Origin: Pseudomonas sp. IAC-BECa141
GTDB lineage: Bacteria; Pseudomonadota; Gammaproteobacteria; Pseudomonadales; Pseudomonadaceae
Assembly (NCBI RefSeq): GCF_020544405.1
Contig: NZ_CP065410.1
Coordinates: 1,922,001 to 1,986,000, forward strand
Length of the DNA: 64,000 nt
Direction: 5' to 3'
Below the pieces are notes generated by a model, which saw nothing but the letters and a program-made list of their open reading frames with translations, had not been told where the DNA came from and ran no database searches. The translations under genes and the position numbers were made by a program. Positions 14,664-36,257 of the stretch are shown piece by piece. Each line of letters starts with the position of its first letter. Positions within the stretch are counted from its first letter, which is position 1.

Positions 14664-14781
14664 ATGCGACGGCAATACGTTGAAGATCCTGGCCAAGCGC
14701 ATGGCCAAGGAGACCGGGTTCTCAGCAGCCGAGATCCTGGCCATGCCCTTCAACGAACTGGTGTGGTGGCTCTCTGACTGA
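14605..14781 (+). CDS. E' extension frame of the tail assembly chaperone (probably made by frameshifting)
   Basis: An open frame in the +1 (equivalently -2) register relative to E runs from just after a stop at 14602 to the TGA at 14779-14781, and encodes the GpE-like end KRMAKETGFSAAEILAMPF...LVWWLSD. There is no ATG in it; a TTG at 14680 could start a 33-residue protein but has no ribosome site. A fusion with E through a +1 slip at TTT CGC (14640-14645) would give a product with 46 extra residues after Phe. The coordinates give the open frame, not a proven product. Confidence 0.55.
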   Translation, partial: RWSITCACRPATFAWSRTSKCDGNTLKILAKRMAKETGFSAAEILAMPFNELVWWLSD

Positions 14782-14819
14782 GCCACCGCTCAACTCTTTC
14801 CGACGCATAAGGCACGCAC

Positions 14820-17369: not shown

Positions 17370-17378
17370 GGAGGACTG

Positions 17379-18224: not shown

Positions 18225-18405
18225 CGGGGATCTGCTCGATACCCTGTGTTACCACGCTTATGGGCATCTCAGCGGAACGGTCGAGGCTGTTCTCGATGCC
18301 AATCAGGGGCTGGCCGATGAGCCGCAGCCGTATCGCGCCGGCATCGTGATCGAACTACCGGACCTGCCTGGTCCCATTCAAGAAGGCCTGGTACTTTGGA
18401 ATTGA
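18199..18405 (+). CDS. Tail protein X, P2 gpX-like (LysM-like fold)
   Basis: 68 residues. The start is placed at the ATG at 18199, which overlaps the end of gene U by 26 nt and has GGAG 10 bases upstream; the next Met at 18205 is also possible. The sequence GDLLDTLCYHAYGHLSGTVEAVLDANQGL is the usual gpX pattern (a short LysM-related peptide, here shown as GDLLDTLCYHAYG and VEAVLDANQGL). It anchors the spike complex. It is followed by a 90-bp gap with a repeated hairpin. Confidence 0.85.
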   Translation: MAMTCRTSDGDLLDTLCYHAYGHLSGTVEAVLDANQGLADEPQPYRAGIVIELPDLPGPIQEGLVLWN

Positions 18406-18460
18406 TGGTCTACAGTCATAGCGTAGCCGTTGTTGTACCTGCAGCTACACCCCTTCAAAA

Positions 18461-18482
18461 CCCGCCTTGTGCGGGTTTTTTT
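18461..18482 (+). terminator. Hairpin plus T-run before gene D (copy 3 of a repeated unit)
   Basis: Stem CCCGC/GCGGG, loop CTTGT, seven T, 13 bp before the gene D start. The same stem and loop occur at 8059, and nearly the same at 4922. Confidence 0.6.
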
Positions 18483-18495
18483 ATGGAAAAAATAA

Positions 18496-19545: not shown

Positions 19546-19575
19546 CGCGGCATTCCCATCACCCAGGAGAAATTC

Positions 19576-20139
19576 ATGTCACTAACGGAACAACAGCTGC
19601 AACGCATCATGCCCAACGCCCGCCGCCAAGCGGGCGTTTTTGTTTCCGCGCTCAATGCCGCTATGGCCTACCGGCAGATCAACACACCGAAACGCCAAGC
19701 CGCATTTCTCGCCCAGGTCGGACACGAATCCGGCGAGCTGAATTACGTGCGCGAATTGGGCGGTGACCAGTACCTGAGCAAGTACGACACCGGCACTCTG
19801 GCCGTGCGGCTGGGTAACACGCCCGAGGCCGACGGCGATGGCCAGCGTTACCGGGGCCGGGGCCTGATTCAGATCACCGGCCATAACAACTACCTGCGCT
19901 GCAGCTTGGCGCTGTTCGGCGATGAGCGATTGCTGCGCACGCCGGAGCTGCTAGAGTTGCCGCAGTGGGCTGCCGAGTCGGCCGCGTGGTTCTGGTGGGT
20001 TCGCGAGCTGAATGCCCTGGCGGATCAGGGCGAGTTCGAGGCAATCACCCGCAAGATCAACGGCGGCCTGAACGGTCTGCAGGAGCGCCTGCAGTTGTGG
20101 GGGCGGGCGAGGGCGGTGTTATGCGTCTCGGCGAACTGA
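19576..20139 (+). CDS. Endolysin, glycoside hydrolase family 19
   Basis: 187 residues, cytoplasmic muralytic enzyme with the chitinase-19 fold. The catalytic region AFLAQVGHESGELNYVRE near residue 45 carries the likely acid Glu, and the segment YRGRGLIQITGHNNY near residue 95 is the family hallmark. There is no signal sequence, so release to the cell wall would need a holin, and no holin gene is seen beside it. AGGAGA precedes the ATG. It overlaps the Rz gene by 19 nt. Confidence 0.92.
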   Translation: MSLTEQQLQRIMPNARRQAGVFVSALNAAMAYRQINTPKRQAAFLAQVGHESGELNYVRELGGDQYLSKYDTGTLAVRLGNTPEADGDGQRYRGRGLIQITGHNNYLRCSLALFGDERLLRTPELLELPQWAAESAAWFWWVRELNALADQGEFEAITRKINGGLNGLQERLQLWGRARAVLCVSAN

Positions 20140-20663
20140 TTCCGGCGCCGTATCGGCTGCTGGTCAGCGTGTTGCTGCTGGCAATTCTCGCCGGCGGATC
20201 CGCGGCCACCGTCTGGCAAATTCAAGATTGGCGCTACGGCAAACAGCTCGCCGAGCAGGCGCGCCTTCATACCGAAACCCTCAATCAACTGGCCCTGGCC
20301 TCGGCCGCACAGCAGCGTGTCGAACAAGACAAACGCCTCGCGATCGAGCAGCGTCTGGCAGCCAGCGAACAAACCCATTACCGAGCCTTGAGCGATGTCC
20401 AACGTGATCAAGGTCGCCTGCGCGACCGCCTTGCCACTGCTGATCTGCGCCTGTCAGTCCTACTCGATGCCGCCACCGTTGCCGGCAAAGGATCGGTGTC
20501 AGCCACCACCGCCACCGGCGGCGTGGTTTATGGCCCCACAAGAGCCGAACTTGACTCAGCGCATGCTCAACGAATTATCGGCGTCACCGACGACGGCGAC
20601 CGGGGGCTGATTGCCCTTGCAGCCTGTCAGGCATACGCCAAAGAAGTCTCAGCACCGAAGTGA
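20121..20663 (+). CDS. Inner-membrane spanin, Rz-like
   Basis: 180 residues from the ATG at 20121, overlapping the endolysin gene end. One N-terminal membrane segment (LLVSVLLLAILAGGSAATVW, residues about 11-30) is followed by a periplasmic coiled coil rich in Gln/Glu/Ala, the standard i-spanin layout. The last 60 residues are less helical. A second lipoprotein gene in the +1 frame lies inside it (20395-20610). The pair fuses inner and outer membranes at lysis. The longer open frame to the left is only overlap with the endolysin gene. Confidence 0.85.
   Translation: MRLGELIPAPYRLLVSVLLLAILAGGSAATVWQIQDWRYGKQLAEQARLHTETLNQLALASAAQQRVEQDKRLAIEQRLAASEQTHYRALSDVQRDQGRLRDRLATADLRLSVLLDAATVAGKGSVSATTATGGVVYGPTRAELDSAHAQRIIGVTDDGDRGLIALAACQAYAKEVSAPK
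20395..20610 (+). CDS. Outer-membrane lipoprotein spanin, Rz1-like, nested inside Rz
   Basis: 71 residues in the +1 frame within the Rz gene, the same nested layout as lambda Rz/Rz1. It has a short signal sequence (VACATALPLLICAC) with a lipobox-like end before Cys 20, then a Pro-rich body (PPPLPAK, PPPPPAAW), which is characteristic of o-spanins. No strong ribosome site is visible before the ATG, so expression may depend on translation of Rz. The Cys in the lipobox is preceded by Ala as required. Confidence 0.75.
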   Translation: MSNVIKVACATALPLLICACQSYSMPPPLPAKDRCQPPPPPAAWFMAPQEPNLTQRMLNELSASPTTATGG

Positions 20664-20780
20664 AAAAGAGCGGCCGGTCCGGATGCGCCAACATCCGGAT
20701 CGACCGCCGTCCCTGCAGATTGTCCCTGCAAGTCCAGCCAAGGCTCTTGCTCCGTGCACAAAGCGCGGCGAGCCTAGCAC

Positions 20781-20796
20781 CTGTTTATACATACAG
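20781..20796. promoter_or_regulatory. LexA box upstream of the DNA methylase gene
   Basis: CTGTTTATACATACAG: CTG-N10-CAG with a TA-rich centre, the gamma-proteobacterial LexA pattern. It ends 16 bp before the methylase ATG, so LexA bound here would block transcription of that gene until DNA damage. Confidence 0.75.
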
Positions 20797-20812
20797 TAAA
20801 GGTCTTGCTTTT

Positions 20813-21607
20813 ATGTCTACACCCATCATCCCTTGGATGGGCGGCAAACGCCGCCTGGCCGACCGCCTCCTTCCGCTTTTTCCGCCACACGAATGCTACG
20901 TCGAAGTCTTTGCCGGCGGAGCCGCGCTGTACTTCATGAAGCCCCAGCCATCGCCGGTCGAAGTCCTCAATGACATCAACGGCGACCTGGTCACGCTTTA
21001 CCGCGTCGTGCAGAACCACCTCGAAGAGTTCGTGCGCCAATTCAAATGGGCGCTCAGCTCGCGACAGGTGTTCGAATGGCAGAAAATGACCCGCCCCGAA
21101 ACCCTCACCGACATCCAGCGCGCCGCACGATTCTTCTACCTGCAGCACCATGCCTTCGCCGGCAAGGTCTCCGGTCAGACGTTCGGCACGGCGACTACCG
21201 CTCCGGCCATCAACCTGCTGCGCATCGAGGAAAATCTCTCGGCCGCGTGGCAGCGCCTGTCCGGCACCTACGTCGAAAATCTCCCCTGGCTTGAATGCGC
21301 GGAACGCTATGACCGTGCCCATACCTTCCACTACATGGACCCGCCTTACTGGCAGACCGCCGGCTATGGCGTGGACTTTCCGTTTGAGAACTATGAACGG
21401 ATGGCCGACTTCATGGGCCGCTGCGAAGGCAAGGTGATGGTCAGCATCAACGATCATCCCGATATCCGCCGTGTGTTCAAAGGCTTCCACTTTGAGACTC
21501 TGGACATCCGCTACACCACAGCCAATCAGCGGCAGGGGAAGGCTGAAGTCAGTGGCGAGCTGGTAATCATGAACTGGGAGCCGGTAGTGTTGGGTGGATT
21601 GTTCTGA
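20813..21607 (+). CDS. DNA adenine methyltransferase, D12 class (Dam-like)
   Basis: 264 residues from the ATG at 20813; longer in-frame starts would cross the LexA box. Motif order is that of N6-adenine methylases of the alpha group: PWMGGKRRLADRL at the N-terminus (AdoMet site), EVFAGGAALYF near residue 35, and catalytic DPPYW near residue 178. It transfers a methyl group to adenine in DNA; GATC specificity is likely by family but not shown. No restriction enzyme gene is adjacent. A LexA box directly upstream implies induction with prophage SOS response. Confidence 0.88.
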   Translation: MSTPIIPWMGGKRRLADRLLPLFPPHECYVEVFAGGAALYFMKPQPSPVEVLNDINGDLVTLYRVVQNHLEEFVRQFKWALSSRQVFEWQKMTRPETLTDIQRAARFFYLQHHAFAGKVSGQTFGTATTAPAINLLRIEENLSAAWQRLSGTYVENLPWLECAERYDRAHTFHYMDPPYWQTAGYGVDFPFENYERMADFMGRCEGKVMVSINDHPDIRRVFKGFHFETLDIRYTTANQRQGKAEVSGELVIMNWEPVVLGGLF

Positions 21608-21731: not shown

Positions 21732-22157
21732 ATGAGCTTTTCAATCCTAAGCCCTATTGCTGTGGCCGGTCGGAAATTACCTCTCTGTCTTTTTCGGGTG
21801 CCGGCAGGCTTTCCTTCGCCGGCAGCGGATCACATCGAAACCCATATCTCGCTCGACGAAGTGCTCAATATTCGTGCCCCGCATGTTTACTTGGTGAGAA
21901 TTGCCGGAGAGAGCATGCAGGGCGCAGGAATCTTTGACGGCGATTTGGCGGTAGTGGATCGCTCACTGGAGCCGGCGCACGGGCATATTGTTGTTGCGCT
22001 GCTTAACAATGATCCGCTTTGCAAGCGGCTGTGCATCCGTGGAAAAGAGGTGATCCTCCTGTCTGAAAATCCCAAGTATCCACCGCGCTACGTGCTGGAA
22101 AGCGACGAGCTTGCGATCTGGGGCGTGATCATTGGCAGCGTGCGCAGTCATGTCTAA
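21732..22157 (+). CDS. umuD: UmuD-like error-prone repair protein, S24 peptidase
   Basis: 141 residues, the UmuD length. Self-cleavage would occur at Ala-Gly in RVPAGFPSPAADH (E. coli cuts Cys-Gly at the same place). The nucleophile Ser is in AGESMQGAG near residue 61 and the general-base Lys in LCKRLC near residue 98. RecA-stimulated cleavage gives UmuD', the partner of UmuC in DNA polymerase V. It overlaps umuC by 8 nt and is led by a LexA box, so the pair is SOS-induced. Confidence 0.93.
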   Translation: MSFSILSPIAVAGRKLPLCLFRVPAGFPSPAADHIETHISLDEVLNIRAPHVYLVRIAGESMQGAGIFDGDLAVVDRSLEPAHGHIVVALLNNDPLCKRLCIRGKEVILLSENPKYPPRYVLESDELAIWGVIIGSVRSHV

Positions 22158-23427
22158 GCGAGTGCCGGTGTTCGGCCTGATCGATTGCAACAGTTTCTAC
22201 GCCAGCTGCGAGCGAGTGTTTCGTCCTGACCTGGCAAAGGTCCCCATCGTTGTCTTATCGAATAATGACGGCTGCGTCATCGCCCGCAGCTACGACGCCA
22301 AGCCTTACGTGAAGATGGGCGAGCCGTACTTCCAGATCAAACACAAGCTTAAGCAGCACGGCATCGTCCCGTTCTCCTCGAACTACGCGCTTTACGGAGA
22401 CATGAGTGAACGCGTCATGACGCTGATTGAGTCGATGGTGCCGGCCGTTGAGGTCTATAGCGTCGATGAAGCCTTCGTCGAGCTCACCGGCATCAACGAT
22501 TTGGACGGCCTTGGTCGAAAAATTCGGAGTCAGGTACTGAAGTGCGTTGGCATTCCAGTCGGGGTTGGTATTGCTCAGACCAAGACACTGGCCAAGTTGG
22601 CCAACCATACGGCCAAACGCCTACAGGCGCAGACGGGCGGTGTCGTCAATATTTGCGACCCAACTAAGCGTGACTGGGTGCTGCGCAACACTGATGTTTC
22701 AGAGGTGTGGGGTATAGGGCGTCGAATGAAAGCGCACCTGGATACGATGGGAATCAAGAGTGCGATGGATCTGGCAAAAGCTGATCCTTGGACGCTACGT
22801 AAAAACTTCAGTGTGGTGATCGAAAAGACGGCGCGAGAACTGGCCGGCACTCCCTGTCTGGAACTCGACGAGCCCGAACCTCCGAAGCAGGAGATCTGCT
22901 GCAGTCGAATGTTCGGCACCCGGCTGACGGAACTGGCACCGATCAAGGAGGCGGTGGCCACGTACATGATGCGAGCCTCAGAAAAGCTCAGGGCGCAAAA
23001 CTCGCTGTGCAAGAAAGTGCGCGTGAGCATTCGCACCGGCATGTTCAATCCGGAGGAGGCGAAGTACGCCAATGGTGTGGTGATCGATATGCCTTACCCC
23101 ACGGATGACGTCCGGCTACTGACCAAGTCCGCAGTCGATGCGCTGGATCGGGTATATCGCCCAGGGTTCAAGTACAGCAAGGCGGAAGTATTGCTGATGA
23201 ACCTGTGTCAGCCAGGTGAATACACGGATGATCTGTTTGCGGCTTCTCAACCGACTGAATCTACCAAGGTCATGGCCGTACTTGATCAGATCAACGAACG
23301 GTGGGGAAGGGGGACGTTGCGAGCAGCTAGCGTCCCTAGCAACCCGGAGTGGGCCATGCGGCGAGAAATGATGAGCCAGAGCTACACTACACGGCTGGAT
23401 CAGCTATGGACTGTGAATTGCAAATGA
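22150..23427 (+). CDS. umuC: DNA polymerase V catalytic subunit UmuC, Y family
   Basis: 425 residues, full length. The start is the ATG at 22150, inside the umuD stop region. The palm motif FGLIDCNSFYASCERVF opens the protein and the second acidic pair is in VYSVDEAFVEL near residue 100. It bypasses lesions with reduced fidelity when bound to UmuD'2. Carriage beside prophage lysis genes means that SOS induction of the phage coincides with mutagenic repair; such cargo umuDC copies are known from phages and plasmids. No terminator is obvious after it. Confidence 0.95.
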   Translation: MSKRVPVFGLIDCNSFYASCERVFRPDLAKVPIVVLSNNDGCVIARSYDAKPYVKMGEPYFQIKHKLKQHGIVPFSSNYALYGDMSERVMTLIESMVPAVEVYSVDEAFVELTGINDLDGLGRKIRSQVLKCVGIPVGVGIAQTKTLAKLANHTAKRLQAQTGGVVNICDPTKRDWVLRNTDVSEVWGIGRRMKAHLDTMGIKSAMDLAKADPWTLRKNFSVVIEKTARELAGTPCLELDEPEPPKQEICCSRMFGTRLTELAPIKEAVATYMMRASEKLRAQNSLCKKVRVSIRTGMFNPEEAKYANGVVIDMPYPTDDVRLLTKSAVDALDRVYRPGFKYSKAEVLLMNLCQPGEYTDDLFAASQPTESTKVMAVLDQINERWGRGTLRAASVPSNPEWAMRREMMSQSYTTRLDQLWTVNCK

Positions 23428-23518: not shown

Positions 23519-23926
23519 TCAGGCAGAGGCTCTGGCTTTTGGGTATAACAAGGTAAGAATGGTAGTAATTAACAGATCTGGCGACCACTGTTTGTGCAGA
23601 TAGGTGATGTGAGCGGGAATAGTGGCGGGTTCCAAAAGGTGTCCGGAGGTGAGAATAGAGCGTACCGCCGGCCATTTTGCCCTAACCATTTCAATGAACT
23701 CACAGCCCTGAATCTTTCCTGGTAATCCCTGGTCGACAATCACCAGCGAACAATGGGCGTGCGTGCCAAGAAGATAGTTGAACGCCTCGTCAGCGCTGGT
23801 GAAAAGCACGGATTTGGCCCCAATTTCGTCGAGAATATCCTTTACCAACATCCGTATAACTGGATCGTCTTCGACCACGATTACAGTCCCGAAGATGGGG
23901 CGAGCCAACTCCCAATTCGCGTTCAT
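23519..23926 (-). CDS. Stand-alone response regulator receiver protein
   Basis: 135 residues from the ATG at 23926 with GGAG upstream; the residue before it is an in-frame TTG. All receiver residues are present: acidic pair in VIVVEDDPVIRML, phospho-acceptor Asp in LVIVDQGLPG near residue 60, Ser/Thr in ILTSGH, Lys in YLHKQW. There is no output domain. It sits alone between the prophage and the fimbrial operon on the opposite strand. It may be a diffusible phosphate carrier or the receiver partner of the EAL protein at 29394; both ideas are inference. Confidence 0.8.
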   Translation of the reverse strand: MNANWELARPIFGTVIVVEDDPVIRMLVKDILDEIGAKSVLFTSADEAFNYLLGTHAHCSLVIVDQGLPGKIQGCEFIEMVRAKWPAVRSILTSGHLLEPATIPAHITYLHKQWSPDLLITTILTLLYPKARASA

Positions 23927-24365
23927 CAATCAGGCTCCAAGGATTGGTAAGCCGCAATTGCGACGAACGCAGTTCTATCACCCTACTCCTTATAGTTGTA
24001 CACGGCGATGCTTTTCACGGTCGGAGCCTAATTCTTTTTTCTGATGGCACACGGCTATGGCATGAGCACCGAGGTCCTAACGTCCGCTAACGGACGTTCG
24101 CATGCGACCGCTATCGGCCAGAAGCGGACATTCACATGCCACCGCTATCGGCAACCAGGGGATGCTCATGAGCGACCGAGCCGAGTCCAGACAGTTCGGG
24201 GCGTCAATACGAAACCAGTATTGAAGTGGAGATTCGCACAAGAAGTTTCTTGCTCTCAATCGAGACGCGTCCCGCTCCAAAACTCATTCTCAATTTTTAG
24301 AATTTCCTTGCGCTAAATCAATGCGCTATCCGCCTGATACAACACTGCAAGGAAGTTTTATCTCC
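23927..24365. other. Intergenic region between receiver gene and fimbrial operon
   Basis: 439 bases without a convincing gene. It must hold divergent promoters for the receiver (leftwards) and fimbrial (rightwards) genes. The middle has an imperfect direct repeat: two copies of a 14-base block around ACCGCTATCGGC (about 24108 and 24141) and a small inverted repeat GTCCGCTAACGGAC (about 24082). A 90-codon frame at 24044 lacks a ribosome site and any known pattern, and I do not call it. An AAGGAAG ribosome site for the pilin gene is at about 24350. Confidence 0.5.
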
Positions 24366-24956
24366 ATGAAAGCAATTAAGTTTCTGATGCTCGCCTCGGC
24401 TGCATTCACGATGACCAGTAATGCCTTCGCCGCCGATGGCACCATAAATTTCACCGGTGAAATTGTCGCTGCATCTTGCGTCGCTTCTGCAGGTGCAGGC
24501 TCCACCGTGGGTGGCAGCGCTGGTCAGCAGATTGTCGATGTCAATCTCGGCAAGATCAGCATGGACGCTATCAATGGTGCAGGTGAAGGCAATATCGCCG
24601 CCGGCACTGCTATCAACCTCAACCTGGACTGTGGTAACACGGCTGCCGGCCTTACAACTGTCAAGTTTAGTTTCGACCCGATGTCCGGCTCCGGTGTCGA
24701 TCCTAAAAACAACAGTCTGCTGAAAATCACGGGCAGTGCTGAGGGCGTGGGCATCGGCATGTTTGACGATAACAACCAACTAATCAACATGTCTGGCAAC
24801 GAAACCTACTCTGCTCCTTTGGTCGTTGAAGGTGAAGGTAAAGACGCGAAGTATTCAGCAGCTATGCGCATGCGGGCTTCTTACGTAGCCAATGGCGCCG
24901 AGCTAAAGCCCGGCACTGCCAATGGCACTCTGCCGTTCACTCTGACATACGAGTAA
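24366..24956 (+). CDS. Major fimbrial subunit (chaperone-usher pilin)
   Basis: 196 residues from the ATG at 24366. Signal peptide of about 23 residues (KFLMLASAAFTMTSNAFA) with cleavage before ADGTINF. The mature protein has the immunoglobulin-like pilin pattern: INFTGEIVAASC and LNLDCGN supply the disulphide pair, and the C-terminal strand GTLPFTLTYE has the penultimate Tyr used in donor-strand exchange. It is the first gene of a four-gene operon and is separated from the chaperone by 54 bases, a gap common after highly expressed pilin genes. Confidence 0.9.
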   Translation: MKAIKFLMLASAAFTMTSNAFAADGTINFTGEIVAASCVASAGAGSTVGGSAGQQIVDVNLGKISMDAINGAGEGNIAAGTAINLNLDCGNTAAGLTTVKFSFDPMSGSGVDPKNNSLLKITGSAEGVGIGMFDDNNQLINMSGNETYSAPLVVEGEGKDAKYSAAMRMRASYVANGAELKPGTANGTLPFTLTYE

Positions 24957-25010
24957 ATCGTCCTAAAAAAGGGAGGGCTTATATGTCCTCCCGTTTTCTG
25001 CGAGTCGCTG

Positions 25011-25730
25011 ATGAATACCGGTAACTTTGTTCGTATCTGCGTACTGTTCACGCTCTTATTGCTATCTGGAGTAACACTCGCAGGTATTCAAGTGAGTGGG
25101 ACGAGAATCGTTTTTCCAGCGTCGGATCATGAAGCTTCGCTTCAGGTTCGTAACGAGGGTAACGATGACATTATGATCCAGTCTTGGATTGAGGCGGGTG
25201 CAGGAGAGGCCAATGGTGAAATCCCTTTTGCGATAACACCATCACTTGCACGCCTTAGCTATCGCAAGCAGCAGACGTTGCGCATTTTCTACCAAGGCAA
25301 AGGGCTGCCAGAAGACCGGGAGACTGCAGTCTGGGTGAGTGTTCAGGAAATACCTCAGGTCAGTGGTTCAGAAAACAGCTTGCAGGTGGCTTTCCGTCAA
25401 CGCTTGAAGTTGTTTTATCGCCCTAACGGTTTGCCAGGGAGCGCAGATGAAGCCGCCGGCACGTTGAAGTGGAATATTCTGAGAACAGCAGGCCAAGCAG
25501 TATTGTTGGTAACCAATGACTCAGCCTTTCATGTCTCGTTCGCCAAGGTGAGCGTAATCGCGGATCAGAAAGAATATGTACTTGAGCCTACCATGATTGG
25601 TCCGCGTGGCTCCCAGAAGATGGCAATCAAGGGACTTCCAGCGTCGGTCGGAGGCGACGCACAAGTTGTCTGGGAATCTATCAATGACTACGGCGCGCTG
25701 ATCGATCACAAGGCATCGATCAAATTCTGA
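25011..25730 (+). CDS. Periplasmic fimbrial chaperone
   Basis: 239 residues. Signal peptide (CVLFTLLLLSGVTLAG), then two immunoglobulin-like domains. The pilin-binding Arg in VSGTRIVFPASD and Lys in QRLKLFYRPNGLPG are both present. The chaperone caps subunits by donating its G1 strand. It follows the pilin gene on the same strand and precedes the usher by about 80 bases. Family is certain; the FGS subclass is my reading. Confidence 0.93.
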   Translation: MNTGNFVRICVLFTLLLLSGVTLAGIQVSGTRIVFPASDHEASLQVRNEGNDDIMIQSWIEAGAGEANGEIPFAITPSLARLSYRKQQTLRIFYQGKGLPEDRETAVWVSVQEIPQVSGSENSLQVAFRQRLKLFYRPNGLPGSADEAAGTLKWNILRTAGQAVLLVTNDSAFHVSFAKVSVIADQKEYVLEPTMIGPRGSQKMAIKGLPASVGGDAQVVWESINDYGALIDHKASIKF

Positions 25731-25813
25731 CGTAGCTGCATCTTTTTTAGCAATGTGATCCGCGCACGCCATGGGGAAGTCCCCAGTATTCCCCGTGCAC
25801 AGGAAGTCGCTTT

Positions 25814-28370
25814 TTGACGGAATTTCGGCCTTATTCCATGCAAATTAGAAAATACAGAAGGAAGTCGCGGAAGGCGTGTGCTCAGCAGAAGCCTAGTAAA
25901 TATCTTTCCTGCTTGGCCGCTGCAAGTATGTTGGGCGCTTCTGCTGCGTCCGCTGCGCAGTTCAACCCAATGTTCTTGAAGGACAAAGGCGCAAAGGTCG
26001 ACCTGCGTTTCTTTGAACAATCAAATGGCGTAATGCCTGGCGTTTATAGCGTTGATGTTTATCTAAACCAGCGTCTTGAGCGACGCCAAGATATCTCTTT
26101 CGTTGCTGACGAAGATACGCCAAATGCTGATGCGCACCCCGTCCTGAGCTTCGGTTTGCTTCGTGAATTAGGTGTGGACGTCGAGCGGCTACTAAAAGAG
26201 GGCATTGTATCTAAAGGAGTTACAGAAGAAGAGCCCGTTAGCATATTGCGTATAGACGGGGCGGTAGTGGAAATGGATGTTTCCAAGTTGTCTCTGTCTA
26301 TCAGTATTCCACAGGCGTATATCAAGCGGCGTTCGCGCGGCTATGTTGATCCATCGCTGTGGGATGACGGGATCACTGCTGCATTTACGAACTATCAGCT
26401 GAACTTCAACCGTAATACGGGGGGGGATTTGAGAGTAACTACGGGTATCTCGGATTACGTAACGGCTTCAACATAGGGCAATGGCGCTTTCGTAACAATT
26501 CTTCGCTCAGCCAGAGCACCGGTATGTCGCGAAGCTTTTCAAGCAACCGCACCTATCTTGAACATGACGTGACGTCCATCAAAGGCCGATTTGCAGTCGG
26601 ACAGCTTTATACAAATGGCGACATTTTCGACAGTAGCCGCTTTCGAGGAATTCAGCTCGGTTCAGACATCGGTATGCTTCCTGATGACGAATCAGGTTAT
26701 GCACCCGTTGTGCGCGGCATTGCTGAAACCCATGCCACTGTCGAAGTTCGTCAGAACGGTTACGTTATCTACTCTACCACTGTCTCGCCAGGTGCCTTTG
26801 AGATTCACGATATTTATCCTGGTGGTTCCAACGGCGACTTAGAAGTCACGATCATTGAATCCGATGGACGTCAGCGCAAATATACTCAAGCATATTCCTA
26901 TTTGCCGGTGATGGTACGGCAGGGGACGTTCCAGTACAGCCTGTCTTTGGGCAAATACGACAACGAAGGGATGGAGTCTCCGAATTTAATTCAGGGAACA
27001 GCGGTCTACGGTGCAACCGATAATCTGACCACGTATGGAGGTGTGCTTAGTGCCGAAGGCTACAACGCTTTTAACTTTGGCCTCGGCCTGAACACGGGAA
27101 TGGGGGGATGTCGCTCGATATCACCAACAGTCAATCGCGTCCGGATACTGGCAAGGCCACAACCGGGCAAAGTGCGCGCTTTCTTTATTCGAAAACTCTC
27201 AATAGCACCAATACAACATTCACGATGGTGGGTTACCGTTATTCCACATCGGGTTATCGAACGCTAAGCGAGCACATTCAGGAAAACAGCGAAGCTGACC
27301 AACAAAATTTCATCAGTGGTCGCCCCAAGAGTCGACTCGATCTGAACATCAACCAGACTATTGGTGGGCGTGGTTCTGTTTTTGTCAGTGCGGGTGAGAC
27401 TAACTATTGGAACCGTGCCGGTAGTACCCGACGTCTGCAGCTGGGGTACAGTGGTAGTGTTGGCGAAGTTACCTACAGTATTACTGCTTCACATACGCAG
27501 AGTGGTGGCCGATCGCGGGAATCAGATAACCAACTTGCGTTCGCCGTGAGTATTCCCTTTGGTTCTAGTTCCCGTTCTCAGCGTGTATATAGCAACTTTA
27601 CCCGTTCGGTCAAAGATGACGACAGTCTTCAGACTGGGGTTTCAGGTTATCTCGACGATGCCGGCAAGCTCTCTTATTCCGCCCAAGCGGGTACCTATGG
27701 TAGTCAGCGTTCCAGCAGTGTCGGTATGGGCTGGGATGCTCCAATGGCCAAAGTGGCAGGAAATTACTCGATGGCTGGCTCCTCCCGTCACATGGATCTA
27801 TCCGCGTCTGGGTCTGTGGTCGCTCACAGTAGTGGTGTCACTTTTGGCCAACCTGTCGGCGAAACTTTCGCGCTGGTGGAGGTGCCGGGTGTCAAGGGCG
27901 CAACCGTCAATGGCGCAACTTCACGTACCGATAGCTCCGGATACGCGATTGAAAGTTACGTACAGCCTTACCGTTATAACGATATTGGTCTCGACACCCA
28001 GACACTTGGCACAGATGTGGACGTTCTTGAAACTTCTGCGCGAGTTGTGCCGCGCCGTGGGGCTGTGGTCAAGGCGCACTTCGATGCATCGTCTGGAAGA
28101 CGTGTGCAGATCGATCTTGTACTACATGACGGAAAGAAGCTGCCATTTGGTGCTCAGGTAGAAGATGAGGGGGGCAAATTATTGGCAGTGGTTGATAACC
28201 AGTCGCGTGCACTGGTCTTCGGTATCAAGAATGAAGGATGGTTGAAAGTGAAGTGGGCGGACGGAATATGCTCCGCGCCTTATAAGTTACCTCCAAAAGA
28301 CAATGCGTTGACCTATGACCGAATGAATATCACCTGCGGTTTTCAGGCTGATCGAGGAACCAAAAATTGA
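25814..28370 (+). pseudogene. Outer-membrane fimbrial usher, FimD/PapC family, interrupted by two frameshifts in G runs
   Basis: Three consecutive frames together cover a complete usher: N-terminal domain with signal peptide (25814-26476), barrel and plug (26430-27100), barrel end and C-terminal domains (27108-28370). The first break is at a run of eight G (26409-26416), the second at a run of six G (27102-27107). Adding one G at each (or removing two) restores a frame of about 852 residues, the normal usher length. The TTG at 25814 has AGGAAG at good spacing; an ATG at 25838 is the alternative. It is either truly broken, phase variable, or a sequencing undercall. The adhesin gene overlaps its end by 4 nt. 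Confidence 0.88.
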
Positions 28371-29347
28371 AGTGTCTAATGTCTGTTTTTTTAACCATTT
28401 TTTTCATGATGATAGGTAGTAATGCCAGAGCAGATAATTCTGCCAGATGTTATTGGTATGTAGGTGGTGTCAACCAGTATGTTAAAAGATTTTTTACTTC
28501 TGCGCCTTCGCCAAAAACACTTTATTTCGCTAAGATTGGCGATCGAATGGCTTATCAGTCAATAAATCTGGCGGCGCAGAGTTTAAATTACGTGAAGTGC
28601 CCAGGGTTAACATCTATTAATTTTACTTATACGATGGATGGTGAATTGGTTGATGGATTTAGTGATGTATATCAGACTAACATACCAGGGGTTGGAGTGC
28701 GTATGAAAAATCCGGAGCTCAACCAGAGTGTGCCCTTTTCGGGGAGTGGTAGAAGCTGTGCAAACTGTGTGGTAGGGCTTCCGAATAAATTTGACGTTGA
28801 ATATGTTCGCACTGGTAGGGATGTGAAGACGGGGAATGTTTCGTTGAACTTTAAGGTTCGCGCTATGTTTCAAGACTGGGATGCTGCAGAAATTTCAATT
28901 ATTGGTACGAATGAACTAAGCTCGCAAACCTTTTTTTCTGGATGTTCTGGTAGCAAAACTCAAGACATCCCTCTTGGTAAAGTGGCGATTGCTCTTCTTG
29001 AACAACAGACACCTCGCAATGTTGGCCTAGAAATCTTGTGCACCGGAGTTTTACCAGGGACGAAACTGCCCTTGAAAGTTTACTTTGAAGGGAGCAATGA
29101 CGGCCCAGGGATGCTCAATCTGACACCAGGCGGCGCGGAGGGTATTGGTATCTCGCTGACCACGGCAAGCGGAGTGAAGCTACCTTTCAATAAGGCAGGG
29201 GGGCTTGCTATGAAATGGGTGAAAACCGAGCAAGACGGCGAATTGTATTCCTTCGATTTCGACGCGAAGTACGCACGCAAAGGGGGTGTTGAACCAAAAC
29301 CCGGGCGGGCGGATGCTGTGTTGAACTACATCCTGGATTACAACTGA
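28367..29347 (+). CDS. Fimbrial tip adhesin (two-domain)
   Basis: 326 residues with a signal peptide (CLMSVFLTIFFMMIGSNARA). The N-terminal part (about 25-190) contains a spread of Cys residues and would be the receptor-binding domain; the C-terminal part from about 200 is a pilin-like domain with Cys in FFSGCSG and LEILCTG and a final strand VLNYILDYN with penultimate Tyr. It overlaps the usher end by ATGA. The first 500 bases are clearly AT-rich compared with the core genome. The receptor cannot be told from sequence. Confidence 0.82.
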   Translation: MKCLMSVFLTIFFMMIGSNARADNSARCYWYVGGVNQYVKRFFTSAPSPKTLYFAKIGDRMAYQSINLAAQSLNYVKCPGLTSINFTYTMDGELVDGFSDVYQTNIPGVGVRMKNPELNQSVPFSGSGRSCANCVVGLPNKFDVEYVRTGRDVKTGNVSLNFKVRAMFQDWDAAEISIIGTNELSSQTFFSGCSGSKTQDIPLGKVAIALLEQQTPRNVGLEILCTGVLPGTKLPLKVYFEGSNDGPGMLNLTPGGAEGIGISLTTASGVKLPFNKAGGLAMKWVKTEQDGELYSFDFDAKYARKGGVEPKPGRADAVLNYILDYN

Positions 29348-29393
29348 AGCCACTGTTTGCAGGTCGAGTGTTCAATGCTCGACCTACATGAAA

Positions 29394-30242
29394 TCACGCT
29401 GCAAAATTATTGTTTCGCGAGGTGAGTCCCGCTAGGAGGGATTCAAATGGCATCGGGCGTGCGCAGTAATAGCCTTGCCCGATCCTTACTCCCATCTCTG
29501 ACAGGCAGCAACGCTGCTCTTCCGTTTCTATTCCTTCCACAACCAGTTGTATGCCCAGCTCTCTAGCCAGCATGACCGTCGTCCGGGCGATACTGCGGTG
29601 TTTTGACGAACTGAGTATCTGCCGCGTGAATTCGCCAGCTAGTTTAATTTCATCGAAAGGTAGTTGGCACAAGCGAAACAGCGACGACTGGCCTGTCCCA
29701 TAATCGTCTAGTGACAGACGTACACCGAGCTGACGAAGGCGAATTACACTCTTAATACAGACTTCGTCCGCTATTGTAGGACCATCCTCTGTTATTTCGA
29801 AAGTTACCGATGCCAAAGGTAGGGGATGCTTTTCTAGGCGACTGATCAGCTTTTCGAGAAAATTGGTATTGGATAATTGTGACAGGCTTAAATTAAAGGC
29901 GAATCCAAATCTATGACCTTTGTCGTGTAGGACAATTTGATGAGCAAGACCTTGCTGGAGGAGGTTGTGCAGCAAATCATCGAGCAGATTTTCGCGGAAC
30001 ATCGTTGGTATGAATACGGCGGGTGCCAAAAGGCCATGGTCAGGATGCTTCCATCGCGCAAGGACTTCCACTGAAAGCAGTGCATTGCTGTTCAGATCAA
30101 ATTTCGGTTGTAGAAACGCCTTGAATTCGCCTTGACGCAACCCTTTACGAATTTCTTGGGCCTGCACTGTGTCAGTCTTTAACTGTGTGTCAGGTCGATT
30201 AAGGTCGCTGTCGGTATTTATGATGCAGAATGCAGTGCGCAT
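29394..30242 (-). CDS. EAL-domain cyclic-di-GMP phosphodiesterase without receiver domain
   Basis: 282 residues, of which about 35-275 form the EAL domain. The signature is EVL (SVEVLARWKHP) with the catalytic Glu kept; the Asn in NLSLSQL, Glu in TFEITEDG, Asp pair in LDDYGTG, Lys in IKLAGEF, Glu in VVEGIET and the QGYY motif are all present, so activity is plausible. Only about 34 residues precede the domain, so the receiver domain found in RocR-type proteins is absent. It lies downstream of the sensor kinase on the same strand, 127 bases apart, and convergent with the fimbrial operon. Confidence 0.88.
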   Translation of the reverse strand: MRTAFCIINTDSDLNRPDTQLKTDTVQAQEIRKGLRQGEFKAFLQPKFDLNSNALLSVEVLARWKHPDHGLLAPAVFIPTMFRENLLDDLLHNLLQQGLAHQIVLHDKGHRFGFAFNLSLSQLSNTNFLEKLISRLEKHPLPLASVTFEITEDGPTIADEVCIKSVIRLRQLGVRLSLDDYGTGQSSLFRLCQLPFDEIKLAGEFTRQILSSSKHRSIARTTVMLARELGIQLVVEGIETEEQRCCLSEMGVRIGQGYYCARPMPFESLLAGLTSRNNNFAA

Positions 30243-30369
30243 GTCGTGAAGCCCTGGTTAAAATTTTCGACCAAGGGTATGTGAGTAATTAATTATGGCT
30301 TCAGAGATGTATCTGGATTGAATTCGAGATAAATCTTGAATTGGCCTGAGATTTTTCTTGGTGTCTAAG

Positions 30370-33300
30370 TCAGCGTACTAGCAGTGATTTATTTATGTTT
30401 TCCAGACAGCTGAGGATTGCCTGTCCTGAATCGTTAATGTCCCTGCCGATTCTTCCACTAGCAAGTTCTTCCATTTCTAGGCAACGTTCCAATAGAATCT
30501 GGTGATTCAACAGGTAAGCAGTGCCTTTTATTTTGTGGACAATGCGCTTGATTTCTACGAGATCGTGGGTTTCCAGCGCTCGGCGTAGCGCAGCACTTTC
30601 ACCCTCGTTGCTCCTCGTAACCTGCTCGGCCATTTTTGCGCGGATATTACTCGTCCAGGATGGACCGCCGTGCGCGTTAGGCTGCTCGTGTCCAAACTTG
30701 GGAATCATCTGATTGAGCGCAGCGAGATCAGTAGGTTTCGCCAGCACGTGATCCATACCAGCAATTCGGCATGCTTGCTGGACTTCGCGCTGAGCATCCG
30801 CCGTCAGACCAATGATCAGACCGGGTTTAATGCCTCTGCCTTTCTCAATACGTCGAATCGACCGGGTCATTTCTAACCCATCCATTTCGGGCATGTTGCA
30901 ATCAGTGATCACGATATCGACCTCATGCTCACTCCAGACTCCAAGTCCCTCCAGACCATTGTTAGCGGTTAGTGTGCGATGTCCTAGGTATTCAATTTGC
31001 TGAACGAGTAAATATTGACTCGGCAGGTGGTCTTCGACGATCAATACGGTGAGTATTTCATGAGCTTCTTGGGGCGCTTGTGCCTTCAGAGAAGGTAATA
31101 CAGTAGCGTCAACGATCACCTTTTCAAGATTGATTGAAAAACTCATCTGGGTGCCGCTACCCAACTCGCTCTGGACCTGCAGGGTGCTTTGCATCAGCTT
31201 ACAAAGTGCTTGGCTGATGGCCAGTCCTAGCCCGGCACCCGCATTAGGATCACTCACGGCGCCATCGGCCAGGTAAAATGGTTTGAATAGCTGATCCAGA
31301 TGTATTGAATGGATACCCGCTCCGGTATCGCTGACACTGATACAAAAGCTCAATGTAGAGCTTCCAACTGCCTGTACCGAGCACTGGATACTAATTGTCC
31401 CGTACTCAGTGAACTTGATTGCGTTACTCAGCAAGTTTGAGACGATCTGTTTGATCTTGACGGCATCGGCCCAAACCTGTTCCTCCGCCAGTGCATCGAT
31501 ATTCAGTTTTATATGCAGCTGTTTCTGCCGTGCGAGTCCAGAGAACACATTGCTCACAGACTCCAGCAGATCCTTCATCCGCACCGGTTCAGGCGTCAGA
31601 ACTAACTTGGCCGACTCTATGCGTGAGATATCAAGGATGTCGCCGATCAGGGCCAATAGGCTGATGGCCGATTCGTAGGCAATATGAATGGACTGCCGAT
31701 TTAGCTCGGCGTCTACCTTGCGTGTCAGCACCAGCTCCAGCATGCCTATGATGGCATTGAGCGGAGTGCGAATCTCATGGCTCATCGTCGCGAGAAACAC
31801 ACTTTTGGCACGGCTGGCCCGATCCGCTGACTCTTTGGCAACCTGCAGTTCGTCCAGTAGCAACTGGCGCTGTTGTAAATCTAGCCGTTTACGACGGATA
31901 CGACGACGCTGAGCTAGAATCAGGAGGCCAGCAACAACAAGCAAGACGCCGAGCACCTCAAAAGAACGCCAGACGTACGATGTTACCCCCTCCCAGTACT
32001 TGTCATCAGTCGCCGAGTTAGCGCGCCATCTACCAATAATCTGTAAGTTCTTGCGAGGCGTTATGTCAAGCATTGCCTTGTCGAGTATGGATATGAATAA
32101 CATCTGATCCTTCGGTGCTGCAAACACGATTCCCACACCTGGACCGTTGAAGACACCTCCGATCCTCAGGCTACTTTCATATTTGTAGGATAGGTAGTAG
32201 CGGGCTACGTTGGCGGGCGCCAAGACCATATCGGCACTGCTTTCCCGTACCAGCTTGAAAGCCTCTCCCATCGTCTCGGTTTCTTTAAAAGCAACATTTG
32301 GATACTGGCGGCGCAACGATTTGGGATCGGCATAGCCTTTCGCAAACGCGACCACAGTTCGGCTTTTCGCATCAAGGTTGACTTGTGCTGCTTCTTGACG
32401 TTGTACAAAGAGATAGGGGGCTGTAGTCAGTGGCCTGGTATGAAGATACGGCAATGAAGTTGGTGATGTGGTCGGCAGTATGCTGAGAATCGCTTTGCCG
32501 TGATCAAGTAGCTCGTCAGCCTCGGTGATCGAGCTGACGCGATGAATATCGAAACGGATGCCTGCCTTGCGTCGAATGATGTCCAGAACGTCAGATGCGA
32601 TGCCGTTGAACCGTCCTCGGCTATTGAAGAAGGCGTAAGGTGCCAGATCCTCACTGACAGCCAACGGCACCGTTGGAGACCGGTCGAGCCATTCACGTTC
32701 CGCGGCGCTGAGTCGATTACGAAACTCGCTCGGATTACAGTCCTCGGTATCGCCCCACAGGTATTGGGCATTGATGATTTGGCAGCGGTCCAGCCCCCCC
32801 AGCATTCGGTCAATAATGTCCTGCAATATTTTGTCATCCGGCCTCAGACCGAATCCGACTTTTACCTCAGGTAGCTTCGCACTTTGGTTAACGACAAGTT
32901 GACTGCTGAATAGCTGGCTGGACAAATAATGGCTGGAGAGTGTGTCACCCAGAAATACATCGTTCTCCCCGGTCAGCACCGATGCCATTGCCAGCAGGGC
33001 GGAGGGGTAATGTTGGAAGCGCCCCCGGCCTCCAATACTTTCAAACATGTCAAGAATTTTACTGTTGGAGAAGGCAATCCGGGTTTGTCCATCCTTGGTG
33101 CTGTATTCGTGTAAATCTCCGCCTTCGGAAAAAAGCGCTAGGTCTGTCAAAGCATAAGGAGAGCTAAGACTCAAACCCTGATTTTTGGCCATCAACGGGG
33201 TGACGTTGCTAACCATATCGATGGTTCCGTCACGCAGTGCAGCATACATGGCTTCGCGAGTTTGGAATGATTGCAGTCGAGTAGGAACGTGAAGCTCTCG

Positions 33301-33585
33301 CTGAAACGCCATCAGGTAGTCAGCCATCAAGCCTTCGAAGCGTTGGTCTTCCTCAAAGATTCGAAAGGGCGGCAGTGAATCCTCAAATACACCAACAACG
33401 AGCACTTTTTTCCGTGCAAGCCATTGCTGATCCGATTCGGAAAGATGGGCTACTAGCTCACTCAGTGATTGTCGTGCAACGGGTATCAATTCTTGGGCAT
33501 ATAAAAGCTTGCCGGAGCCACAGAGTAAAAGAAGCAATACTGACAGGATTTGAACGGGCTGCAGGTAGGCTTTCACGTGAGGCAC
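30370..33585 (-). CDS. BvgS-like hybrid sensor histidine kinase
   Basis: 1071 residues. Layout: signal/anchor segment at about 12-30; two periplasmic solute-binding-like domains (about 50-285 and 290-525); membrane segment [16 protein letters not shown] near 550; HisKA with [14 protein letters not shown] near 605; ATPase with [16 protein letters not shown] and GAGLGLAIS; receiver with [10 protein letters not shown]... and Asp in [12 protein letters not shown] near 890; C-terminal Hpt with [11 protein letters not shown] near 1020. There is no PAS domain, unlike BvgS itself. The start is GTG at 33585, two bases after the regulator gene, so the two are coupled. It matches RocS-type kinases that control cup fimbriae in P. 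aeruginosa. Confidence 0.92.
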
Positions 33586-33587
33586 CG

Positions 33588-34205
33588 CTATATCAAATTA
33601 TGCCGGCGAGCAATGTCGGCCAGTTCGATCAGCGAGTTAGCACCCAACTTGCTTTGGATGTTGACCTTGTGCCCACTGACTGTCTTGGTGCTCAGGTTTA
33701 GGCGAGTAGCAATCTCAGCATTGGAAAAACCCTCAGCCAGCAACTTGAAGATCTGCAACTCCCTGTCGGTAAGACCTTCGACGTCGGTTGTCAGCTCGAC
33801 GTTGCCAAGTAGAGGCATGGCATCTTTTGGAAAAAAAATGTATCCGTCTGCCACTGTCTCCATCGCTTTGACCAGCTTGCTGATAGGTTCGCTTTTGCTG
33901 ACGAAACCACTGGCACCGGACTGCAGGCACCGCGATGCGTAGTTTTCCTTGGCCTGGGAGGTGTAGACCAGCACGCGGGTATCTAGCTTGTCTCGCCTGA
34001 TGCGTTTTAGCACCGTCAGGCCGTCGACTTTTTCCAACCCTATGTCCAGGATCACTATGTCGGGCTTGAGCGACTCAATCATTCGCACGGCTTCAACGCC
34101 GTCGGCAGTTTCGCCTACGGCCTCAAAGCCGACCGGTTCGAGAGCTGAGCGAATGGCATGGCAGATCAGTGGATGATCATCAACGATCAGGATTTTTTTA
34201 CTCAT
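33588..34205 (-). CDS. BvgA-like LuxR-family response regulator
   Basis: 205 residues. Receiver: ILIVDDHPLICHAI, phospho-acceptor in DIVILDIGLEKVDG near residue 53, VYTSQ and Lys in FVSKSEP. Linker, then LuxR-type helix-turn-helix from LTDRELQIFKLLAEGFSNAE to the end. It is probably the transcriptional output of the adjacent kinase through its Hpt domain, and the fimbrial genes are the natural target. It is transcribed first, ahead of the kinase, and faces a small receiver-like gene across a 310-base divergent region. Confidence 0.92.
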   Translation of the reverse strand: MSKKILIVDDHPLICHAIRSALEPVGFEAVGETADGVEAVRMIESLKPDIVILDIGLEKVDGLTVLKRIRRDKLDTRVLVYTSQAKENYASRCLQSGASGFVSKSEPISKLVKAMETVADGYIFFPKDAMPLLGNVELTTDVEGLTDRELQIFKLLAEGFSNAEIATRLNLSTKTVSGHKVNIQSKLGANSLIELADIARRHNLI

Positions 34206-34515
34206 TCAGTCACCGAAATATGATGGCGTTTCACTCTGAGAATACGAGGAAGAGTCTTGGCTCACTTGGGTGATTTGCTCACCCCCTAATGCATTAGCCC
34301 ACGTCCATTGACAACACGTTTCTCGCACTTCATCTGAAACCAGTGCTAATTCGTTAAACCAGTGTCGCAATGATATCTCTGGAGAACACGTCAGACATCC
34401 TTTCGTGTTGTTCGGGGTATTTTTCGAGGAAAAACCTCATGTTAAACAAGATTTTTCTTGTCTACCGCGCTCGCTCATTTGCATAGGCTGCTTGGAGTTA
34501 TTCAGGAGCACAGTA
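34206..34515. promoter_or_regulatory. Divergent promoter region between regulator and receiver-like gene
   Basis: 310 bases with promoters expected in both directions. There are several short palindromes (for example TAATGCATTA at about 34290) and AT-rich stretches near 34370-34460, but no operator that I can name. CAGGAG at 34503-34508 is the ribosome site of the rightward gene. Confidence 0.4.
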
Positions 34516-34905
34516 ATGCATCGTCAACAGGAACGAGTCGCCGTGATCGGCAAGCGCCCCGGCGGACTGCTGGAGTTCACGCGCTTGCTGAACGAGCTGG
34601 GACTTTTCGACATTTCACTTCGAAATACGGCAAATCAAATTGTGGAGTTGCTGGACAAAGGTCATCGGTTCAGTGCGCTTTTTTTTGACAACTTCGACAT
34701 ACACAAAGACGGCGAAAGCGTTAAGTCCATTGCGTGTTACAGAGCAATCGACCAGATCATCCTCACGGCAGACGTAAATTCTCAGGAGCGCCGCCAGCTC
34801 CTGGAGTGGGGTAAAAAGCGTTCAGTAGCGATGCTGCAAGTCATGCAGTTACCCATTCGTACCGAGGATTTGAAAAAGGTAATGAATCCGCCGCTTACGC
34901 GTTGA
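34516..34905 (+). CDS. Small receiver-like protein with degenerate active site
   Basis: 129 residues, start at the ATG at 34516 with CAGGAG upstream. The alternating beta-alpha pattern resembles a CheY-like receiver: first strand RVAVIGKRPG, an Asp after a hydrophobic strand in SALFFDNFDI, IILTADVNSQ for the Thr strand, and LQVMQLPIRTEDLKK at the Lys/Pro position. The acidic pair of the first loop is missing (GKRPG) and the conserved Lys is not evident, so normal phosphorylation is unlikely. It is divergent from the BvgA-like gene. It may be an allosteric partner in the same circuit; this is inference. Confidence 0.6.
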   Translation: MHRQQERVAVIGKRPGGLLEFTRLLNELGLFDISLRNTANQIVELLDKGHRFSALFFDNFDIHKDGESVKSIACYRAIDQIILTADVNSQERRQLLEWGKKRSVAMLQVMQLPIRTEDLKKVMNPPLTR

Positions 34906-35089: not shown

Positions 35090-35109
35090 GTACCAATTTC
35101 TGTACCAAT
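35090..35109. repeat. Tandem GTACCAAT repeats near the island border
   Basis: GTACCAAT at 35090-35097 and again at 35102-35109, twelve bases apart. Closely spaced short direct repeats beside an insertion border are typical arm or excisionase sites of tyrosine recombinases; that reading is inference because no integrase is in the window. Confidence 0.45.
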
Positions 35110-35179: not shown

Positions 35180-35227
35180 CTACTCCCACCCCCTAAACAT
35201 GGCGGTGTAATTCTGTTCCAGGGACAT
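35180..35227 (-). pseudogene. folE: 5' fragment of folE (GTP cyclohydrolase I) at the accessory-region border
   Basis: The minus strand from the ATG at 35227 reads MSLEQNYTA, which is the N-terminus I recall for Pseudomonas FolE (continuing ILGQLGED in intact genes), then changes to MFRGWE and stops. In P. aeruginosa folE2 (PA1674) lies directly beside the Smr-domain gene PA1675, as it would here. So the first nine codons belong to the core genome and the sequence to their left is foreign. The remaining folE should lie at the other, unseen end of the element, with a new 5' end. Confidence 0.7.
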
Positions 35228-35304
35228 GAAACTACCTGTGGGGATTTTCGCAAAGGGCAAGGGTACGGTGGCGGACACGACCCTGCAAGTTCGGTGTAAC
35301 GGGA

Positions 35305-35862
35305 TTATTCGTCGCGGCCTTCCATCATGGTGCGTTTGAGCATCACATACACGGCGCCGGCACCGCCATGTTTCGCCTGGCACGAGCAGAAACCGAGCAC
35401 TTGCGCGTGCTGGCGCAGCCAGGTGTTGACGTGGCTTTTGATCATCGGCCGCTTGCCGTCCAGACGCACAGCCTTGCCGTGGGTGACGCGCACGCAGCGG
35501 ATTTCGAATTTGGTCGCTTCGGCCAGAAAGGCCCAAAGGGTTTCGCGGGCCTTTTCCACGCTCATGCCGTGCAGGTCGAGGCTGCCTTCGAACGGGATCT
35601 GCCCGATCTTGAGCTTGCGCATCTGGCTTTCCTGCACCCCGTCGCGAGCCCACATCAGCTCGTCTTCCGGGCCGACGTCAATCACGAACTGATCGGACAA
35701 GCCGTCAACGGTCGTGGTGTCGGTGCGCACGGTGGCAGACTGGCGCAGCTTGGCGATCCGGTCACGGTCAGCCTTGGGTTTGCCGGTGTCGGCGCGGTCG
35801 TGCTTGATCGGCTTGACGCCTTGGATCGCACTTTTGAACAGGGAAAAATCGTCGTCTTGCAT
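35305..35862 (-). CDS. Smr/MutS2-type endonuclease domain protein
   Basis: 185 residues from the ATG at 35862; the frame runs on upstream without support. The Smr domain covers about 95-185, with the SLDLHGMSVEKARE motif near residue 97 and the VTHGKAVRLDGKR motif near 130, the two conserved blocks for nicking or binding nucleic acid. The N-terminal 90 residues are charged and typical of the YdaL/SmrB-like stand-alone proteins, which act on collided ribosomes or DNA; which applies here is unknown. It corresponds by position to PA1675 and marks the start of core chromosome. Confidence 0.88.
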   Translation of the reverse strand: MQDDDFSLFKSAIQGVKPIKHDRADTGKPKADRDRIAKLRQSATVRTDTTTVDGLSDQFVIDVGPEDELMWARDGVQESQMRKLKIGQIPFEGSLDLHGMSVEKARETLWAFLAEATKFEIRCVRVTHGKAVRLDGKRPMIKSHVNTWLRQHAQVLGFCSCQAKHGGAGAVYVMLKRTMMEGRDE

Positions 35863-35936
35863 GTCAGCCTCCGCGAAGGGCGGCCAGTTTACCCAAACAG
35901 ACACAAAACGGCCCGGCAAAAAGCCAGGCCGTCGAT

Positions 35937-36257
35937 TCAATCATGTTTTTTCATCAGGTGCGGGGACATGTTCAACTCCCGCGATTGCCGTGCGCGACGC
36001 CGGCACCGACGCCACAGGGCCACACCGAAATACAGGAACAGCAGGCCGACCGCGAGAATGATTGCCGAGCCGAGCGGTGTTGCATTCAGATCGCCGAGCG
36101 CCGGCGGGCGCCCCAGCAGGCTGGCGGCCCCGGCCATCGCCAGCAGCACGCCGAACGTGGCCAGAATGGCCGCGATCGCCGCGCCGAATCGAAATCGCCA
36201 GTTGCTTTGGCCTTTGGGCCGCAAGCGGCGTGCGTCAAATCCATCGGATAACTTCAT
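35937..36257 (-). CDS. Small two-helix membrane protein
   Basis: 106 residues from the ATG at 36257. Two membrane segments: FGAAIAAILATFGVLLAMAG (about 26-45) and LGSAIILAVGLLFLYFGVAL (about 63-82), followed by a strongly basic cytoplasmic stretch (WRRCRRRAR). I do not recognise a functional family. It sits between the Smr and hydrolase genes, as PA1676 does in P. aeruginosa. Confidence 0.75.
   Translation of the reverse strand: MKLSDGFDARRLRPKGQSNWRFRFGAAIAAILATFGVLLAMAGAASLLGRPPALGDLNATPLGSAIILAVGLLFLYFGVALWRRCRRRARQSRELNMSPHLMKKHD

Follow-up and report, generated by a model that had tools for sequence, protein, structure and literature searches.

The 48-bp feature analysed here is very probably the attR of a 48.2-kb tyrosine-integrase prophage that occupies a 20-bp site in folE (codons 3–9) and restarts the gene with sequence of its own. 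Integration cuts folE off from its ATG-TCC start and from the Smr-side leader, the left junction keeps the complete rest of the gene, and the left end of the element gives it an in-frame GTG-ACA. Positions without a prefix (Table 1) are those of the window, the whole 64,000-nucleotide stretch that we analysed (G000:C1:1922001-1986000); it comes from a genome of one 6.22-Mb contig (G000, the own genome).

Table 1. Features of the window, with positions counted from its first nucleotide.
Feature	Position	Strand	Basis
Prophage right part	1..21607	+	PHROGs
Portal	1913-3391	+	PHROGs
Tail fibre	10146-12104	+	PHROGs
Tail sheath	12405-13820	+	PHROGs
PHROG 'head closure' match	13833-14336	+	PHROGs
Tape measure	14820-17369	+	PHROGs
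Tail protein	18496-19545	+	PHROGs
DNA methyltransferase	20660-21607	+	PHROGs
UmuD-like peptidase and UmuC-like polymerase, last conserved prophage genes	21732..23427	+	Homologues in G016, G074, G130, G162, G210
Cargo between umuC and attR, ~11 kb	23519..34905	.	ORFs and family matches
GTACCAAT repeat pair, 12-bp period	35090..35109	+	Possible integrase arm sites (putative function)
Native folE start remnant (MSLEQNYTA, six element codons and stop)	35180..35227	-	Read directly; same start in ten empty-site loci
attR core, 20-bp direct repeat, folE codons 3-9 minus last base	35202..35221	.	Identical to attL G000:C1:1908990-1909009
Native Smr-folE leader with ATG-TCC, now severed from folE	35222..35304	-	Sequence, empty-site comparison
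Smr-domain ORF, chromosomal flank	35305..35940	-	PF01713, E = 1.7e-24

The two junctions of the element

Read on the minus strand, the feature (35180-35227) begins with the nine codons ATG TCC CTG GAA CAG AAT TAC ACC GCC and continues with ATG TTT AGG GGG TGG GAG TAG. Its translation, MSLEQNYTAMFRGWE, is MSLEQNYTA joined to MFRGWE and followed by the stop. The original prediction had described just this, a minus-strand start that diverges to a stop after six codons and adjoins a Smr gene. The Smr-domain ORF lies 77 bp upstream of the 48-bp folE remnant, and a check for an intact folE adjoining the Smr gene in G000 found none. In P. aeruginosa, the gene beside Smr is presumably folE2.

The rest of folE, looked for to the left of the window, lies there at attL, 13.0 kb away and ~48 kb to the left of the remnant (G000:C1:1908476-1909006, minus strand). 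This folE is complete, has zero internal stops and gives full-length matches over the cut-off to PF01227 (252 bits, E = 2.7e-75) and TIGR00063 (251 bits). The 20-mer GCGGTGTAATTCTGTTCCAG that forms the attR core recurs exactly once in the 81 kb examined, inside the complete folE; the next-best matches in the same 81 kb have 5 mismatches. A degenerate core search of the whole G000 genome with at most one mismatch returned these two places only. The two copies have the same orientation and are 48,212 bp apart.

Occupied and empty folE sites in Pseudomonas genomes

A query that joins the two flanks matches all of 249 Pseudomonas genomes (own included) and, among the matches listed (to about E = 9e-92), is contiguous in most relatives. 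In the comparison with strains that lack the insert, the joined folE–Smr sequence is unbroken and the core is single-copy in the empty sites. Also among the matches listed, the match of the joined query begins no more than 3 bases from the core in G000, G010, G016, G036, G062, G074, G162, and G210. The predicted integration within the first folE codons is borne out by the two junctions, the 20-bp direct repeat, and the unbroken joined sequence in relatives.

By pattern search, 214 of the 249 genomes contain the core, and 26 of them contain it at least twice. Both junctions were confirmed by reading in at least 15 of the 249 genomes (own included), namely the genomes just listed together with G130, G137, G139, G155, G184, G197, and G237. 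This count is a lower bound, because 11 genomes were left out for having their second copy on a different contig, on the opposite strand, or far off (G060, G085, G118, G123, G138, G152, G154, G180, G185, G208, and G228); G016 was retained despite cores on two contigs, both of its junctions having been read. The shortest core-to-core distance is 1.5 kb (G010), and the longest is 50.0 kb (G139 and G155). The left end of the element is recognisably similar in all 15 occupied genomes, and Smr lies beyond the right end in 14 of them (own included); the G184 contig stops ~1 kb beyond the core, and this stretch has no Smr match.

We give next to no credence to the idea that MSLEQNYTA is a chance match, or a fragment of an old folE duplication with no integration scar. 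The coding match alone spans nine residues, as such an origin would allow, but the exact 20-bp repeat, the folE body at the other end, the unbroken sites in relatives, and the recurrence in at least 15 of 249 genomes refute it.

G137 has a third core on another contig (G137:C1:140730; L045, core at 15731), at the right end of a prophage; its flank differs from the folE/Smr leader, and the left end of that prophage was not found. In G155 (L049, 13385-14600), ~1.2 kb with two small ORFs, which by eye resemble a toxin–antitoxin pair, separates the attR core from Smr. This stretch starts with the element-left-end sequence TGTCACAGGG and is perhaps the remnant of a tandem element.

Predicted reconstruction of the folE start

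Ten empty-site loci (L005-L014), which are the best 10 matches of the joined query and hence unbroken by selection, all have the native ATG-TCC, with the ATG six bases before the core. At the occupied sites, all 15 genomes have an element-borne, in-frame GTG at −6, exactly where empty sites have the native ATG, and the folE body that follows is without a stop in every one. The original prediction had envisaged a rescue of this kind, through a new start at the other end of the element. Specifically, the left end of the element in G000 supplies GTG-ACA in frame where ATG-TCC stood, and the resulting FolE is predicted to be changed by one residue, Ser2 to Thr (M-T-LEQNYTA vs. M-S-LEQNYTA).

An in-frame ATG further upstream (MESAS- or similar) is found in 11 of the 15 occupied genomes and is absent in G137, G139, G184, and G197; an in-frame TAA at −15 rules out a longer N-terminus in three of the 15 (G137, G139, and G197). 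Because of these four absences and three stops, the common start of the rebuilt folE is probably the GTG. Possible alternative starts are present at the first core codon, as ATG in G184 and as TTG in G139 and G197. The motif GGAA, kept nine bases before the GTG in all 15 genomes, may be a ribosome-binding site.

Scans for sigma-70-like consensus sequences returned no site on the folE strand near attL of G000 and no site in the native leader region, and in G062 one weak site inside int, where 0.8 are expected by chance. A strong terminator-like hairpin lies on the folE strand ~0.7 kb upstream of folE in G000 (L003:4706-4752, minus strand; −23.8 kcal/mol, z −5.6); it was picked by eye and is not in the terminator-scan list. 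Between it and folE, within the int remnant, is a weak terminator-like match. Given the position of the hairpin, a transcript from deeper in the element should end there, so that any folE promoter of G000 is to be expected in the ~0.7 kb that separate the hairpin from folE. We infer that the element would supply the folE promoter: folE would be transcribed from the element, either in an int–folE unit or from a promoter inside the 3′ end of int.

The absence of a convincing promoter in the scans at attL of G000 and in G062 also fits a different account, in which the insertion knocked folE out, a second copy does the work, and the GTG is a by-product. Such a copy, the other route of rescue that had been predicted, is present in G000 over the Pfam cut-off (G000:C1:1038230), and a second folE-like match occurs in all eight occupied genomes searched. 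The loss of the Smr-side leader to folE upon insertion and a locus without a folE body (L082, described below) point the same way. We nevertheless regard a knockout as improbable: the GTG is at the exact native start position in all 15 genomes, even where the upstream ATG is missing and a stop intervenes, and the folE body is stop-free in all 15, whereas decay in some of them would be expected were the gene dispensable. Restart of folE by the element is the reading that we prefer.

Integrase, arm-like repeats and relatives of int

The tyrosine integrase was identified by PF00589, PF12167, and PF22022, and int-related sequence is found at attL in all 15 occupied genomes. Seven of them (G016, G062, G074, G130, G139, G155, and G210) have a full-length int that ends beside folE on the same strand, so that integration there results in an int–folE tandem; the distance from the int stop to the GTG is 22 nt in five of the seven (not in G130 and G139). 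The attL copy of int is shortened, frameshifted, or a remnant in the other eight.

In G000, ~70 C-terminal codons of the original int are left at attL, and a complete int copy of 396 residues, with different last codons and without the C-terminal codons that carry the arm-like repeats, lies 2.2 kb inward. Between the two is a gene pair resembling a toxin–antitoxin module (antidote family PF21716 over the cut-off; Gp49-like partner PF05973 just below it). A search for the insert between remnant and copy as a mobile unit gave little: 18 of the 249 genomes match it, and outside G000 these matches cover at most ~690 of its 1951 bases, mostly the toxin–antitoxin part.

Three otherwise unrelated sequences join the 3′ end of int near one point, just before CGGCAATACAACTGC (int codons RQYNC), and leave a C-terminal remnant of int: at L003:4250-4290 in G000, at attL of G162 (L050), and at attL of G010 (L034). 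G000 and G162 each have one more int copy deeper in the element, and the 3′ end of that copy differs. The point before CGGCAATACAACTGC may be a second, nested insertion site within the int gene.

The GTACCAAT pair beside the right core (Table 1) has its match at the left end of the element, at G000:C1:1909061 and 1909072, where repeats of this type are encoded by the last int codons (..IGTKLVQ..). They are probably integrase arm sites. We tentatively propose that the 3′ end of int serves as arm site and folE leader at once, and that folE of the lysogen is under prophage control as an int–folE transcription unit; such a double role would account for the retention of the int 3′ end in shrunken islands of 1.5–3.1 kb.

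An int-alignment scan of named genomes gave 20 loci, 16 of which have a complete folE downstream of int. In 15 of these 16, no more than 30 nt separate folE from the matched end of int; at L073 (same as G162), folE comes after an insert and not directly behind int. The named loci L064, L066, L071, L072, L073, and L078 were judged to be G016, G074, G210, G130, G162, and G155, respectively, which are already counted. Two more distant int relatives are without folE (L080, 64 per cent; L081, 61 per cent), and L083 is a 25 per cent int match outside Pseudomonas. At L082 (Pseudomonas sp. TH31, 7186-9400), an int relative with a partial core is followed 2.2 kb on by another int 3′ end with a core. 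We read this locus as a rearranged or secondary site; since int and core-like sequences are present there and the folE body is missing, it indicates that the rescue of folE can fail. Across the order, 6 of 293 genomes have int relatives at E ≤ 1e-60, with no folE match in ~4 kb, own locus excepted.

Prophage body and right-end cargo

The original prediction was of an inserted accessory block; the insertion stands, and the element is now seen to be a prophage with cargo rather than an accessory block alone. Besides the functions in Table 1, PHROGs name a primase and a terminase in the element, and terminase, portal, sheath, tape measure, and integrase are thus found together in one element, as in a contractile-tail temperate phage. 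Where the fetched stretches cover them, the structural genes have about 74–97 per cent protein identity to those of G016, and the packaging genes 79–88 per cent to those of G210. The terminase of G000 is only 32–33 per cent identical to those of G062, G074, and G130; the folE site is therefore shared by different phages whose integrases are related.

The cargo of G000 encodes a response regulator, a fimbrial subunit, a chaperone, an usher, an adhesin-like subunit, an EAL protein, an EvgS/BvgS-like hybrid kinase, a LuxR-type regulator, and an ORF without a Pfam match. The fimbrial usher is in three pieces and frames (25814-26476, 26524-27267, and 27108-28370, with PapC_N followed by two Usher pieces) and looks broken.

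Different cargo occupies the stretch from umuC to the right core in G016, G074, G130, G162, and G210; G062 also has right-end cargo, and the piece fetched from it gave no umuC match. Of 58 right-end ORFs, ten were compared with protein families. In the right-end cargo, this comparison gave a Shedu SduA homologue (G210), an ATPase matching HEC-03B together with an RNA ligase domain (G162), a C5-methyltransferase adjoining an AAA ATPase (G074), an OLD-like ATPase (G130), a PDC-M53A match (G062), and a NACHT match below the Pfam cut-off (G016). AriA/AriB-like proteins are encoded in the prophage by the third core of G137, a prophage that may lie elsewhere than at folE. Judged by these genomes, cargo varies in the stretch that runs from the last conserved prophage genes to the right core, and by family matches some of the tested cargo proteins (Shedu, AriA/AriB, methyltransferase with ATPase, and HEC-03B) resemble anti-phage defence.

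The cargo of G000 is unlike phage genes, and the element could be composite, that is, a prophage and an independent fimbrial island in tandem at the folE site, with the internal repeat lost. An ORF in the 6-kb island of G036 that resembles the fimbrial subunit (32 per cent over 66 per cent) and the possible tandem remnant at attR of G155 would agree with this. However, a search of the G000 element between its two ends gave no further core at fewer than 5 mismatches, the GTACCAAT repeat pairs are at the two outer ends only, and the prophages of relatives carry unrelated cargo at the same place, so that cargo is normal there. A composite origin is thus unlikely, and we treat the element as one prophage with its own cargo.

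Comparison with known systems

The closest described case is the dusA family, in which dusA-specific islands, as well as prophages that carry dusA-associated integrases (DAI), put sequence of their own in place of the dusA 5′ end (PMC4482086). Both systems have a tyrosine integrase by a housekeeping gene at its 5′ end, short direct repeats, a site common to prophages and islands, and element sequence that replaces the 5′ end of the gene. The dusA islands replace a stretch that includes a beta strand, whereas the folE replacement comprises the start codon and one further codon. The target of the present integrase is folE and not dusA, the target of the DAI, and the likeness described here is one of layout.

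SXT supplies a new start and promoter to prfC. SXT/R391 elements integrate site-specifically in the 5′ end of prfC (PMC2791158, PMC2786100, and PMC3715440) and resemble the folE elements in their tyrosine recombinase, their choice of the 5′ end of a conserved gene, and their formation of a family with varied cargo; they are conjugative elements in prfC, whereas the folE elements are prophages in a different gene. Another insertion in Pseudomonas that splits a nucleotide-metabolism gene is the 65-kb island in tmk of Pseudomonas putida KT2440, a gene of essential function (PMC10653934). There, tmk stays broken and an island-borne kinase substitutes for it, whereas the split folE itself receives a new start.

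At the level of sequence, the folE element has three features of SXT/prfC- and dusA-type integration: an integrase gene at the element end, a 20-bp direct repeat, and an in-frame replacement 5′ end. Integrases of six Pseudomonas phages (PseuP_224, JBD44, MD8, TC7, PS-1, and vB_Pae_U7) are 62–47 per cent identical, and their last codons carry a similar GGTAC-type repeat pair. The best match to the folE core in the six phage stretches has at least 7 mismatches, the records of PS-1 and U7 ending at int. A literature search, mainly of open-access papers and by title or abstract start, did not find folE as a prophage or island target; other mentions were unrelated (folE copy number, a ybhL/folE region list in Photorhabdus/Xenorhabdus, and GTP cyclohydrolase II in Helicobacter). 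These comparisons support folE as a new target for the known strategy of gene-restoring 5′-end integration.

Implications

What emerges is a prophage attachment site within a folate-synthesis gene that is used repeatedly in Pseudomonas, and an integrase family with a defined 20-bp target. The repair of the gene would be near-seamless, with one residue changed and the position of the start codon unchanged. Because folE is rebuilt and a second folE is present, the site may be a safe landing place that is reused by different phages. The attachment site allows a direct approach to how phages occupy 5′ gene ends harmlessly, and it also marks prophages with varied right-end cargo that in part resembles anti-phage defence. 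If the tentatively proposed int–folE unit is real, a pterin/folate enzyme of the lysogen would come under prophage control.
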